64,000 nt of DNA from Rhodoluna sp. KAS3. GTDB lineage: Bacteria > Actinomycetota > Actinomycetes > Actinomycetales > Microbacteriaceae. Position numbers and translations under genes: made by a program. The notes under the pieces were generated by a model. The model searched no databases and had not been told where the DNA came from. It saw only the letters and a list, made by a program, of their open reading frames with translations. The stretch spans positions 186,001 to 250,000 of the forward strand of contig NZ_AP026910.1 of assembly GCF_026000575.1 (NCBI RefSeq), in the 5' to 3' direction. Positions 59,658 through 64,000 of the stretch are shown here, piece after piece. The first letter of the stretch is position 1, and every line of letters begins with the position of its first letter.

Positions 59658-60986
59658 GTGGGCGGGCCTTTTCGCAACTTTGAGCGGGCTACGCCTGAGC
59701 AAATGCATCGCCGCGCTTGGTTTCTTATTATTTTGAATTTGCTGGTCCCTGGTTCGGCACAGCTGCTTGCCGGTAACCGCCGATTGGCTCGGATTGCCCT
59801 CACTGCAACCTTGAGTTTGTGGGGCCTTGTTCTGCTGATTGTTTTGCTCGGCACGATTAATCGCGACTGGGTTATCTGGATGGCCACCGTTCCATTTCTG
59901 ATGGGCCTGATGTCGGTAATTTTGATTGCCTACGCAGTTGTTTTTGCCGTGGTTTCACTTGATACCCTGCGCTTGATGCGGGTCGGCCGTATGTACAACC
60001 GTGAGCGCTGGATCACCCTGGGCGCGATTGTCCTCACCGGTGTTTTGGGCACCTCTGCCGTTGCCTACGGTGGCAACCTAGCCGGAGTTCAGTCCAACCT
60101 AATTGCCACCATCTTCAACCAAGGCGGGCTAACCCAGGCGGTCGATGGGCGCTACAACATCATGCTGCTCGGTGCCGATGCCGGAGCGGACCGATTCGGT
60201 ATTCGCCCAGACAGCATCTCTGTGGTCAGCATCGATGCCGAGACCGGTCAGACCGTGAACATTGGTATTCCGCGCAACCTGCAGCGAGTTAGTTTTTCTG
60301 AGGGTTCACCGATGCTTGAGGTCTACCCAAACGGTTGGGACTGCGGTGTTGAGTGCCTAATTAATGCCATCTACAAAGATGTTGAAGACAATCACGCCGA
60401 TTTGTACCCGGATGCTGTTGCGCAGGGTTCAACCCCTGGCACTGAGGCCACCCGCGATGCAGTCGAGTATGTAACCGGTCTTGAAATTCAGTCTTACGTG
60501 TTGGTTGACATGGCAGCCTTTGAATCGCTAATTGATGCTCTGGGCGGCATTGACATCAACGTCAAAGAGCGCTTGCCCATCGGTGGTCAAAGTGAAGACC
60601 TATCTGACGTCAAGGGTTGGATCGAGGCTGGCCAGCAGCACATGGATGGCTACACCGCCCTCTGGTATGCCCGGTCGCGTCACACCACATCTGACTACGA
60701 CCGCATGAAGCGCCAGCACGAGGTAGAGAATGCAGTGTTGGCCCAGATTGCACCGGCCACCGTTCTGAGCCGATTCCAGCAAATTGCCTCGGCAGGTAAA
60801 AAGATGATTCGCACCGATATTCCGAGCGGAATGTTGACCGAGTACGTCAACCTAGCAACTTTGGCCAAGGAACAGGGCATCAACTCGATACCGCTGATTC
60901 CGCCAACCATCGATGTAATTCACCCCGATTTCACAGCAATTCATGCCATGGTTGAAGAAGCCACTACACCGGTGCCTAAGGAGTAG
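59658..60986 (+). CDS. LytR-CpsA-Psr family cell wall glycopolymer transferase
   Basis: LCP proteins attach polyprenyl-linked glycopolymers to peptidoglycan on the outer face of the membrane. The 442-residue frame starts with GTG at 59658; ATG 59703 is an alternative. Three N-terminal hydrophobic helices (about 25-45, 54-95, 113-135) precede the LCP domain: NIMLLGADAGADRFGIRPDSISVVSID (landmarks LGADAG, RPDSI), IPRNLQRV with the catalytic Arg, and YARSRHTTSDYDRMKRQHEV. It begins 38 bases after purE. Three membrane segments are more than the usual single one. Confidence 0.9.
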   Translation: MGGPFRNFERATPEQMHRRAWFLIILNLLVPGSAQLLAGNRRLARIALTATLSLWGLVLLIVLLGTINRDWVIWMATVPFLMGLMSVILIAYAVVFAVVSLDTLRLMRVGRMYNRERWITLGAIVLTGVLGTSAVAYGGNLAGVQSNLIATIFNQGGLTQAVDGRYNIMLLGADAGADRFGIRPDSISVVSIDAETGQTVNIGIPRNLQRVSFSEGSPMLEVYPNGWDCGVECLINAIYKDVEDNHADLYPDAVAQGSTPGTEATRDAVEYVTGLEIQSYVLVDMAAFESLIDALGGIDINVKERLPIGGQSEDLSDVKGWIEAGQQHMDGYTALWYARSRHTTSDYDRMKRQHEVENAVLAQIAPATVLSRFQQIASAGKKMIRTDIPSGMLTEYVNLATLAKEQGINSIPLIPPTIDVIHPDFTAIHAMVEEATTPVPKE

Positions 60987-60989
60987 CTG

Positions 60990-61484
60990 ATGAAGAAGGT
61001 TGTTGTCTTGGCAGGTGCCGCCCTAGCAGCGGTATCACTGACTGGCTGCGCCCTGCTTTATCCAAACTGGGGGACTGACCAGGATCCAAGTGATTCGGCC
61101 ACCCCGACAACCTCGGCAACACCGACGGTTACTCACACCGAGACTCCGACTCCATCTGAGTCGCCGAGCAAAGTTTTGGGTAGCGCTGACGTGGTTTTAT
61201 TCGACGCTGGCCTTGACCTCTCGACCAGCCCGGCCAAACTTTACGCGATGGCGGATGTGGCAAATTTTGCCGAAAATGGCGGCCAGTGCATCCTGGTTTT
61301 CACCAGTGGATCAACCACCAAAACCGTTGCTGTGTCAGCCGAGGCAAATGTTCAGCGCACTCAGTGCGCACTGATGGAGTTGCCGGTCACCGGGCTCCCT
61401 AAGGGCAACGCAACCCTTCATGTGAAGTATGAGTCGGCTAACTTTGCCGGTCAGACTGAAAAAGTTTCTGTGGTGGTTCCGTGA
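60990..61484 (+). CDS. Secreted lipoprotein, unknown function
   Basis: 164 residues with a clear lipoprotein signal: MKKVVVLAGAALAAVSLTGC, the lipobox LTGC giving Cys20. A Ser/Thr/Pro-rich linker (about 30-60) follows, then a beta-rich domain with two Cys residues (near 101 and 126). It starts 3 bases after the LCP gene and its TGA overlaps the GTG start of the next gene. No domain is recognised. Context suggests a role at the cell envelope. Confidence 0.8.
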   Translation: MKKVVVLAGAALAAVSLTGCALLYPNWGTDQDPSDSATPTTSATPTVTHTETPTPSESPSKVLGSADVVLFDAGLDLSTSPAKLYAMADVANFAENGGQCILVFTSGSTTKTVAVSAEANVQRTQCALMELPVTGLPKGNATLHVKYESANFAGQTEKVSVVVP

Positions 61485-64000
61485 TAAGCCGGTTCAGGTC
61501 CAAGGCTGCATCGTGGTTTTTGGTGGTCGCGTTTGCGATTGCCGGAGTGGTGCCGATTTTCGTAGATCAGCAATCAGCCGACGCAGCGATTGATGCGTCG
61601 AGGTTCAACCCGGGACTAATCATCAGCGATGCAGCTTTTTATGACGAGAGCAGCATGACGATTGAGCAGATTCAAAACTTTCTTGAACAGCAGGTGCCAT
61701 CTTGTCGCGCTGCAGCCGGTGAACCGGACTGCCTCAAGAATTACCGCACTAACTCTCCGGCTGTGACCGGCGAGACTGGCATTTGTGAGTCCATGCCGGA
61801 CCGCGGAGTCATCCGTGCGTCTGAGCTGATTTACCACGTAGCTCAAGCCTGCGGAATTAGCCCACGTGTGATTTTGGTGATGCTTCAAAAAGAGCAGGGT
61901 CTGGTTCAGAGTGACCGCCCGTATTACAGCTCGAGCAACCCTGAGCGCCGCTATACGTTTGCGCTCGGAATGGACTGCCCTGACACAGCAGATGGTTGTT
62001 CAAAGTCATCAGCCGGCTTCTTCTGGCAGCTGTATAAGGGCATCGGTCAGCTCAACCGCTACGTGACCTATCCAACTCGCTACCCGACTTACCAACCGGG
62101 TACCCGCAAGATTTATCTAAACCCTGACCGCACCTGTGGTCAGATGACCGTGAACATCATCAACAAGGCAACCACCGCGCTGTACACCTACACTCCGTAC
62201 ACCCCGAATGCGGCTGCGTTGGCAAACCTATTTGGCAGCGGTGACAGCTGCAGTGCCTACGGTAACCGTAACTTCTGGCGGTTTTTCCACGTCTGGTTTG
62301 GCGACCCGGTTGCCGGGTCCTTCATGGTTACCGCTGCTGATAGCCCAACTTACTTGATTGTCAATAATCAAAAAATTGAGATTCCAAGCACAGCAATCGC
62401 GACTTCGTATAAGCCTCTCGGCCCGGTCGGAAAAGTGTCGAAAGACTACCTAGATTCGATTCCAACCGGAGCCGGAAAGCTGCCGGTAGTGGTCAAGAAT
62501 TCAGCAGCAACGCCAAACTATTACGTTGTCGACTACGGACAAAAAATCGATTACAGTTGCACGCAAATTGCTGCCCTGGGTTTGAGTTGCGACTCTGCCA
62601 TCCAGCTTGACGCCAACCAGTTGAGTCTGCTGCCGACCGTGCAACCAGACCTACTTCAAGACTTCAAGGGCAACCAATTTGCGCTGGTTGGTAACTCGAA
62701 ATACACAATTTCTGACCCAGTGACCAAAGCAGCTTTTGCTCCAATGCTCAAGCCGATCACGGTTTCGGGAACCTACCTAGAGAAGTTCACCACGGCCGGT
62801 GAATACCAGCCGGTCGTTCGGGCACCTGCATCACCTTGCTACTTTGTGCACGGAGGCAAGCGCTACTCATTCACAAATGATGCCCAGATGGCCGAATTTG
62901 GAATTGACTGCGCTAAAGGTATGTACGTTTCAACAACCGTATCTGGCAAGCTGCCAATAGCGGGTGTTCTGAGTGAGTACGTAACATCTGCGACCGGTGA
63001 AAAATACTTGATTCAGGGCGGCACCAAACGGCAAATCTTCGACACCAAATCATCGGAAACTATCGGCTTGCCTTCTCTTTCTCCGGTAAGTGCGGCTGCA
63101 TTTGCCTGGATGCCAATCGGAAAACCGGTCATTCGCGACAAGATTCTATTTGCTAGCGCCACCACCGGTGAAAAGATTCTGCACCTTGACGGCGTTGCCT
63201 ATACCGTTGCCGATGCCACCGCCGCTGAACTGTCCCTATCGACAGTGTTTGAGGCTTCGAGTCTGAAATTGCCAACTGACGCACTTGCGCCAATTTTGGC
63301 TGATGACCCACTGAATCCGATTGTCAGTGATCCATCTGGGCAGCAGTACATTTTGACTTCTAGGGGAGCCCGCCGAATTGAAACCGGCAAGTCTCTGACC
63401 GAGAACGCCACAAAAGTGTCGGCCAACTTTATCGCTGCGTTTGCACCGAGCGCCGCTTCTCCGATGCCAACCACAGTTTTTGTAAAGTCGAGTGCCTCGA
63501 CCACGGTCTACTTGGTTGAGAGCGGTGTCAAACGTCAGTTGCTCAATACTGCAGACCGGGCCAAATTTGCCACCCTGATGACCAAGACAACCATCGAGCC
63601 GCTCTCGAGTTCGGCCATTGCCCAAATTCCGACAGGCAACCCAGTCATTACTCCTGGAACTTTTGTCACCGACAGCTCAACCAGCAAGACCTACTTGATT
63701 GACACGCTTTCGCGCGCAGTCCTGGTGCCAAACTCGAACCAGGCTGCCTTGCTTGGCCTGCCGACTCCAAAGGCCTACTCGGCTGCCGCACTCAAGGGCT
63801 ACACCAAGGGCGCAGCGCTCAAGAACACTAAGTTGAAATGCGGCACTCAGACTTACCTCTCAATTAGTGGCAGCCTCTACCCAATCAGCGATGCCTTGGC
63901 GGCCGAGTATCCGGGTGGCGCACTATCGCTCAGCGATATTACCTGCGGCAATTTGGTCAAGAACACCAAGTCAGCCGGCGTATTCATCAAGTCGACTGGC
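61481..64000 (+). CDS. Large secreted repeat protein with a muramidase-like N-terminal domain, partial
   Basis: A GTG at 61481 overlaps the lipoprotein stop (GTGA). The frame stays open for 840 codons to the right edge. A signal peptide (VISRFRSKAASWFLVVAFAI core, cleavage after SADA near residue 36) is followed by FNPGLIISDAAFYDESSMT and a lysozyme-like region with the catalytic-type Glu138 in MLQKEQGLVQ. From about residue 285, roughly ten short blades repeat with the pattern aromatic-Leu/Ile, Gly-Lys, Ile (TYLIVNNQKIEI, KYLIQGGTKRQI, VYLVESGVKRQL, TYLIDTLSRAVLV). This looks like a beta-repeat or wall-binding array. Probable role: peptidoglycan remodelling or surface structure; inferred only. 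Confidence 0.75.
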   Translation, partial: MISRFRSKAASWFLVVAFAIAGVVPIFVDQQSADAAIDASRFNPGLIISDAAFYDESSMTIEQIQNFLEQQVPSCRAAAGEPDCLKNYRTNSPAVTGETGICESMPDRGVIRASELIYHVAQACGISPRVILVMLQKEQGLVQSDRPYYSSSNPERRYTFALGMDCPDTADGCSKSSAGFFWQLYKGIGQLNRYVTYPTRYPTYQPGTRKIYLNPDRTCGQMTVNIINKATTALYTYTPYTPNAAALANLFGSGDSCSAYGNRNFWRFFHVWFGDPVAGSFMVTAADSPTYLIVNNQKIEIPSTAIATSYKPLGPVGKVSKDYLDSIPTGAGKLPVVVKNSAATPNYYVVDYGQKIDYSCTQIAALGLSCDSAIQLDANQLSLLPTVQPDLLQDFKGNQFALVGNSKYTISDPVTKAAFAPMLKPITVSGTYLEKFTTAGEYQPVVRAPASPCYFVHGGKRYSFTNDAQMAEFGIDCAKGMYVSTTVSGKLPIAGVLSEYVTSATGEKYLIQGGTKRQIFDTKSSETIGLPSLSPVSAAAFAWMPIGKPVIRDKILFASATTGEKILHLDGVAYTVADATAAELSLSTVFEASSLKLPTDALAPILADDPLNPIVSDPSGQQYILTSRGARRIETGKSLTENATKVSANFIAAFAPSAASPMPTTVFVKSSASTTVYLVESGVKRQLLNTADRAKFATLMTKTTIEPLSSSAIAQIPTGNPVITPGTFVTDSSTSKTYLIDTLSRAVLVPNSNQAALLGLPTPKAYSAAALKGYTKGAALKNTKLKCGTQTYLSISGSLYPISDALAAEYPGGALSLSDITCGNLVKNTKSAGVFIKSTG

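Follow-up and report, generated by a model that had tools for sequence, protein, structure and literature searches.

A secreted Rhodoluna protein with a predicted lysozyme-fold head and a string of EccB-type repeats

What is the function of the very long, apparently secreted protein whose gene runs off the end of a 64,000-nucleotide stretch of the Rhodoluna sp. KAS3 genome (NCBI RefSeq assembly GCF_026000575.1, contig NZ_AP026910.1, positions 186,001 to 250,000 of the forward strand; hereafter the window)? A preliminary description, made from the letters of the window, had seen in this gene a lysozyme-like head followed by about ten beta-type repeats, and had suggested that the protein acts on a surface polymer together with an LCP protein and a lipoprotein encoded upstream. 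Our findings suggest that it is quite probably a secreted, lysozyme-fold hydrolase of wall glycans from an unnamed family, which carries a string of EccB-type, putatively wall-binding modules and is coupled to a membrane-tethered partner.

The genome carrying the window is a single contig of 1.34 Mb, and the open frame could be read on past the window edge. It closes at 1094 amino acids, with the stop codon ending at window-equivalent position 64765, and the very long secreted reading frame described earlier was thereby confirmed. A signal peptide is followed by a head of 245 residues and by 14 repeats of about 55 residues, the last three of which are preceded by a linker rich in proline and threonine. 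We read the N-terminus as a signal peptide because it holds the one strongly hydrophobic segment of the protein, with its peak within residues 8-30: the highest-scoring windows of 19 residues begin at residues 8-12 (mean of up to 2.4), and the best value beyond residue 60 is 1.4. The features of the gene are as follows.

61481..64000, plus strand: secreted-protein gene with a GTG start; the window covers residues 1-840
61481..61585, plus strand: putative signal peptide, residues 1-35 (RFRSK, hydrophobic stretch, ADA/A), from hydropathy, with the cleavage site placed by eye
61586..62323, plus strand: head domain, residues 36-281, from alignment, model and fold matches; predicted lysozyme fold, unnamed family
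61892..61894, plus strand: Glu138 in LQKEQGL, invariant, toward the C-terminus of predicted helix 128-139; putative general acid
61982..61984, plus strand: Asp168 in CPDT, invariant in 65 of 65 heads; candidate second carboxylate
62321..63973, plus strand: EccB-type repeat units 1-10, from profiles, the model of a relative and similarity to EccB, with boundaries set by hand (units 1-5, residues 281-334, 335-390, 391-443, 444-498 and 499-550; units 6-10, residues 555-612, 613-664, 665-722, 726-780 and 784-831)
63977..64000, plus strand: start of repeat unit 11 (residues 833-887)
Beyond the window: linker rich in proline and threonine (residues 888-934), then units 12-14 (residues 935-1094)

The head is predicted with high confidence to adopt a lysozyme-like fold. 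Its AlphaFold2 model reached a predicted local distance difference test score (pLDDT) of 93.9 and a predicted template modeling score (pTM) of 0.92. When this model was compared with 350,542 PDB chains by Foldseek, the four best matches were egg-white and g-type lysozymes and autolysin E, at E values (0.32 to 2.0) that are not significant, and unrelated proteins were mixed into the lower rows. VIA-align, which re-scored Foldseek's own list and is not an independent search, gave Z scores of 9.1 for LytB, 7.9 for autolysin E, 6.4 for cod g-type lysozyme and 6.0 for MltC. Among the matches listed, 38 of 39 were by name lysozyme-type or related glycoside hydrolases or phage lysis and tail proteins, the exception being calpain. 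The model of a relative matched LytB E585Q with a Z of 9.6 and autolysin E with a Z of 8.4 in the same program. A viral structure library held nothing at E ≤ 0.001 for the head; tail lysins and transglycosylases were listed at E 0.19 and worse.

Eight cysteines and the motif LQKEQG are present in every row of an alignment of 57 heads, so that Glu138 is conserved in 57 of 57. In a set of 65 aligned heads that includes eight remote ones, Glu138 and Asp168 are the only invariant acidic residues; others invariant in 65 of 65 include Gln183, Tyr235, Tyr237, Thr238, Pro239, Gly261 and Asn262 (YxYTP and GN motifs). The position of Glu138 near the C-terminal end of helix 128-139 fits the catalytic helix of the lysozyme superfamily, as judged on a predicted structure with weak Foldseek E values, and a conserved Glu near a helix C-terminus in a lysozyme-like alpha domain is also what marks glycoside hydrolase family 73 (GH73). 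The lysozyme superfamily, according to excerpts of one report, has a beta-hairpin with Gly and Gln facing the cleft (PMC2976769). Strands 207-212 and 221-226 are predicted in the head model, and Gly179 is conserved in 64 of 65 heads, alongside Gln183. By analogy, Asp168 may be a second carboxylate, comparable to the residue that excerpts of another study describe as the general base of the Auto enzyme (PMC4633669).

This head is a widespread bacterial family without an entry in the family libraries that we searched. Pfam, NCBIfam and PHROG models and a search of PDB sequences gave no meaningful match to it. A Pfam scan of the 57 heads brought up 13 scattered families, each in at most three members, which we took as chance; PF01832 (GH73) had no match up to E 1 in the secreted protein or in any of the 57 heads, and PF01464 (SLT) had none in the same set. 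PDB profile matches of the head to PP2A span only about 28 residues and were likewise taken as chance. Phage and plasmid collections held no match to the head. Within its own family, the Microbacteriaceae, the head is present in 185 of 199 genomes. It was found in at least 81 of 297 genomes of an order sample and in at least 14 of 396 genomes of a phylum sample (six of the own family, eight remote), where both samples include genomes of the own family and both counts, like the counts of partner genes in family genomes given below, are lower bounds, with part of the candidates scored in many genomes. The nearest named records belong to Rhodoluna and other Microbacteriaceae, the six nearest sharing 52-57% identity in their best segments within the head. 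Among the matches listed from the open-access literature, there was no account of the head family or of a wall hydrolase that carries EccB-type repeats.

PF01832 matched nothing in the window genome and none of 60 family genomes, compared with 39 of 149 in the phylum sample. The SLT model matched 30 of the 60 (28 over the cut-off) and nothing in the window genome, and the Rpf model also found nothing there. Because the GH73, SLT and Rpf models match nothing here, with MltG and others not included in the search, the head could fill the role of the missing wall glycosidases. Compared with the GH73 enzymes LytB of Streptococcus pneumoniae and autolysin E of Staphylococcus aureus, the head shares the predicted fold, a Glu placed toward the C-terminus of a helix and the joining to other modules; unlike them, it has eight invariant cysteines and a second invariant acid, Asp168. 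The g-type lysozymes and lytic transglycosylases (GH23/SLT) resemble it in the lysozyme-superfamily helix with its Glu and in the Gly and Gln conserved after the helix, but they reach lower Z scores (6.4 and less), and the head has neither a PF01464 match nor any relevant profile similarity to them.

The repeats are homologous, as had been proposed, on the evidence of profiles, a duplication and the model of a relative. The earlier count of about ten is correct for the window, which holds ten whole units, and falls short of the 14 in the full protein. We tested each unit against chance with a leave-one-out profile and 500 shuffles per unit, also excluding the duplicate for units 9-14. Six of the 14 units beat every shuffle and three were reached by one to four shuffles; units 6, 9, 10, 12 and 13 were not separable from shuffles on this protein alone (48-417 of 500 reached them). 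An iterated profile recovers all 14 units (domain E < 0.01), and a unit profile matches, in the whole genome, at these 14 places only (E ≤ 0.001), both results being partly circular in that each profile contains the protein's own units. Units 9-11 and 12-14 arose by duplication, with 81 of 158 aligned residues identical. The repeats have independent support, because the model of a relative shows repeating strand-strand-strand-helix units and because they resemble EccB. Phage collections gave no match to the repeats, and a PHROG of unknown function matched the repeat region as a whole (E 4.5e-9), although no individual stretch passed. Matches of the repeat profile to Toxin A, although one of them ranks first by E value (3.9e-4), consist of GKKYYF-like pieces of 13-18 residues with at most 7.5 bits each, and were set aside.

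Judged by the model of a relative and by sequence similarity, the repeats are EccB-type alpha/beta modules, not propeller blades, and the beta-type blades of the preliminary description therefore have to be given up. The modeled relative (L026, 755 amino acids; pLDDT 90.7, pTM 0.63) has nine units by our count, mostly in the order strand-strand-strand-helix-(strand)-helix. In a Foldseek search with this model, the ten best matches were all EccB (E 1.1e-6 to 8.9e-5, probability 0.90-1.00). A single unit superimposed on EccB1 (5cyu) with a Z of 7.8 and a root-mean-square deviation of 1.4 Å over 55 residues, and another on a chain of the lysin LysIME-EF1 with a Z of 6.4 and a deviation of 2.2 Å over 56 residues. 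At the sequence level, the unit profile found EccB1 among PDB sequences at E 4.1e-4, ranked just behind the Toxin A match, and PF05108 matched seven of 63 single units (best E 0.002), with no whole-protein match up to E 1. Two Microbacteriaceae EccB proteins scored 41.1 and 30.0 bits with the unit profile, with matches near R1, R2 and R4, compared with at most 9.4 bits for 500 shuffles (100 of each of five long open reading frames) and 5.0 for other real open reading frames.

The EccB1 repeats, as described in excerpts of the structural report, consist of a four-stranded sheet with two helices, and R1 resembles the phage wall binder PlyCB (PMC4769845). The repeats studied here agree with that type of module in length (about 50-57 residues), in the predicted four-stranded sheet with two helices and in similarity to R1-R4. 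EccB of the ESX type VII secretion systems (PF05108) thus shares with them units of about 55 residues and the predicted fold, and its sequence is detectably similar; in EccB1, however, four repeats surround a core domain that follows a transmembrane helix (PMC4769845, excerpts), whereas here 14 follow an enzyme-like head. The wall-binding subunits of PlyCB and LysIME-EF1 are similar in module fold but form rings, of eight in PlyCB (PMC4769845) and of four in LysIME-EF1 (PMC7098653) according to the excerpted texts, in contrast to a tandem string within one chain. A role in ESX or type VII secretion was considered and rejected; the PF05108 model matches nothing in this genome.

We then examined which modules accompany the head in 60 full-length relatives, taking the best 25 of 28 families, a few matches of which look spurious. 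Among the matches listed, the head is joined to LGFP in 13 members, SH3_3 in 10, LysM in six, FG-GAP in four, CW_binding_2 and CBM_4_9 in three each, and Amidase_2, choline-binding repeats and SLH in one each; none of the scanned families matched the window's own member. Four relatives (L023, L024, L026 and L028) have similar repeats followed by a linker rich in proline and threonine or a short gap and then LysM ends. After its linker, the window protein carries a second copy of units 9-11 instead of a LysM end. Three remote homologues (L114-L116) have the head at the C-terminus, preceded by what appears, by eye, to be a coiled coil. This order recalls what we take to be the arrangement of PcsB/EnvC type hydrolases governed by FtsEX.

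Directly upstream of the secreted-protein gene lie two genes on the same strand.

59658..60986, plus strand: glycopolymer transferase of the LCP family (PF03816, scoring 91.7 bits over residues 184-364 against a cut-off of 24.6)
60990..61484, plus strand: lipoprotein partner gene (lipobox LTGC with Cys20, stalk rich in proline, threonine and serine, and a weakly immunoglobulin (Ig)-like domain of about 90 residues with two invariant cysteines)

The three genes had been described as overlapping at their ends; the lipoprotein gene and the secreted-protein gene do overlap, by four bases (GTGA), and the LCP and lipoprotein genes are separated by a 3-base gap. The lipoprotein is apparently a conserved, membrane-tethered companion that is translationally coupled to the head gene and may act as an anchor, a chaperone or a switch. 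An iterated profile of its end domain matched in 46 of 102 loci, always in the open reading frame directly upstream of the head, and nowhere else in these loci (E ≤ 0.01); three of the 46 are copies of the window's own locus, and near relatives were otherwise kept. The partner's stop and the head's start overlap (ATGA, GTGA, TTGA, TAATG or TAGTG) or, in L012, touch, with start codons assigned by eye. Some members carry a lipobox and others an apparent transmembrane segment; a stalk of proline, threonine and serine comes next, followed by the domain with two invariant cysteines. The Ig-like nature of this domain is suggested by weak Big_3_5 matches in five of 27 members, at a best E of 9.6e-5 and with the protein encoded in the window below the cut-off, and a PDB search gave no match for it. 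Loci with the partner include Rhodoluna-like bacteria, Subtercola, Frigoribacterium, Cellulomonas and Actinotalea. Across the 199 family genomes, we found at least 53 partner places in at least 51 genomes, 38 of them directly upstream of a listed head. The proposed link among the three genes thus holds for the lipoprotein and only in part for LCP: in 80 loci (L023-L102), the partner occurs in 30, an LCP gene upstream on the same strand in 35, and both in five.

What the analysis shows is the predicted fold of the head, its conservation, the likeness of the repeats to EccB, the modules that accompany the head and the coupling of the two genes; from these features we infer an activity, the bond cut, wall binding and a role for the partner. 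The head would be a glycan hydrolase of the lysozyme superfamily that cleaves the strands of peptidoglycan; Glu138 would serve as the general acid, and Asp168 might supply a second carboxylate. For the bond cut, endo-N-acetylglucosaminidase activity is slightly favored, since the nearest folds are those of LytB and autolysin E, both GH73 enzymes. The 14 EccB-type repeats would bind the wall as a string, retaining the enzyme there and determining how far it reaches, at a place where related proteins have a LysM end in addition. The membrane-anchored, Ig-like partner would be made just before the enzyme from an overlapping frame, and probably binds it during or after export, either to retain it at the membrane or to control its activity.

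Several observations weigh against this explanation, beginning with the Foldseek E values of the head. A Z score of 9 is only slightly above the 7-8 that, according to the tool's own note, models without clear relatives can reach. Profile comparison of the head by hhalign gave no significant link: the alignment with GH73 was not significant (probability 0.7%, E 0.076), though it set Glu138 on the GH73 catalytic Glu, and that with SLT sequences gave nothing relevant. The YATD/YASD motif of GH73 enzymes, known from excerpts of PMC4633669, was not seen in the head when its sequence was read by eye. For the repeats, Z scores below about 13 may mean merely a common arrangement, the EccB1 match among PDB sequences is the sum of four weak stretches, and template modeling scores of the whole string to EccB are low (0.08-0.15), so that the module agrees and the arrangement does not. 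Binding of peptidoglycan by EccB is itself, in the excerpts of PMC4769845, suggested from structure without experimental proof. As to the partner, 20 of the 80 loci have neither partner nor LCP/purE, and 148 of the 199 family genomes gave no partner match in counts that are lower bounds. Of the 53 partner places, 12 lie in genomes whose head place is not listed and three are not beside a listed head, two of these in one genome with further unlisted heads.

Could the head be a lysozyme-fold, glycan-binding pseudo-enzyme, and the protein a wall scaffold or adhesin? The lack of any matching family model and the weak Foldseek scores agree with this, and the tyrosine-rich, invariant YxYTP motif could serve binding. 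A pseudo-enzyme, however, need not keep Glu138 and Asp168, which are invariant in 65 of 65 heads including the remote relatives, and the GH73, SLT and Rpf models, the classes searched, match no gene here and leave their role unfilled; we therefore consider a pseudo-enzyme unlikely. A second alternative is an enzyme that shortens or detaches a secondary glycopolymer, linked to the wall by the neighboring LCP protein, rather than cutting the peptidoglycan backbone. An LCP gene lies upstream in 35 of 80 loci, and genes for an O-antigen-ligase-like protein (PF04932) and for a glycosyltransferase (PF13641) follow farther on. No LCP gene was found in the other 45 loci, however, the matched folds belong mostly to enzymes of peptidoglycan and chitin, and the modules of relatives include the peptidoglycan-type binders LysM and SH3, all of which makes this explanation improbable.

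The same weighing applies to the repeats, which as three strands in about 55 residues might be blades of a beta-propeller. In the Foldseek list, EccB is followed by the sensor domain of BT4673, tectonin 2 and hemopexin, at E values of 1.1e-3 or worse; we take these three to be propellers. Their probabilities are at most 0.25, compared with 0.90-1.00 for the ten EccB matches, each unit carries helices in the model of the relative, and one unit fits EccB1 to 1.4 Å over 55 residues. We give a propeller hardly any credence. Lysozyme fold around Glu138 and homologous repeats are thus both what the models and profiles support, and we retain a wall glycan hydrolase with an EccB-type string as the preferred explanation.

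The locus as a whole runs purK, purE (both labeled by eye), LCP, lipoprotein and secreted-protein gene, followed by an O-antigen-ligase-like gene on the opposite strand. This last gene (PF04932; L002:7763-9145, minus strand), just outside the window, stands tail to tail with the secreted-protein gene, with a 4-base overlap of their ends, and a relative of it also lies on the opposite strand in the loci of L026, L028, L032, L038 and L066. The PF13641 glycosyltransferase follows farther along, and beyond the window, after a long glycosyltransferase, comes a DUF5719 protein (PF18986; L002:13701-15026).

A broader proposal, which we offer tentatively and regard as rather doubtful, is that the head is the founding member of a new family of glycoside hydrolases and a main wall-cutting glycosidase of the Microbacteriaceae and neighboring groups, where no GH73 was found, that it is exported together with its coupled, membrane-tethered Ig-like partner and switched or held by it, and that the string is a dedicated binder of peptidoglycan, so that EccB of type VII secretion would be wall-anchored by descent. 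For the family, our findings point to a putative wall enzyme that is near-universal in Microbacteriaceae, unlisted in the libraries searched and probably annotated as hypothetical. The conserved, overlapping partner is a candidate regulator of this predicted enzyme. The soluble string of 14 modules would offer a multivalent test of the peptidoglycan binding suggested for EccB, and would tie a putative wall hydrolase to EccB.

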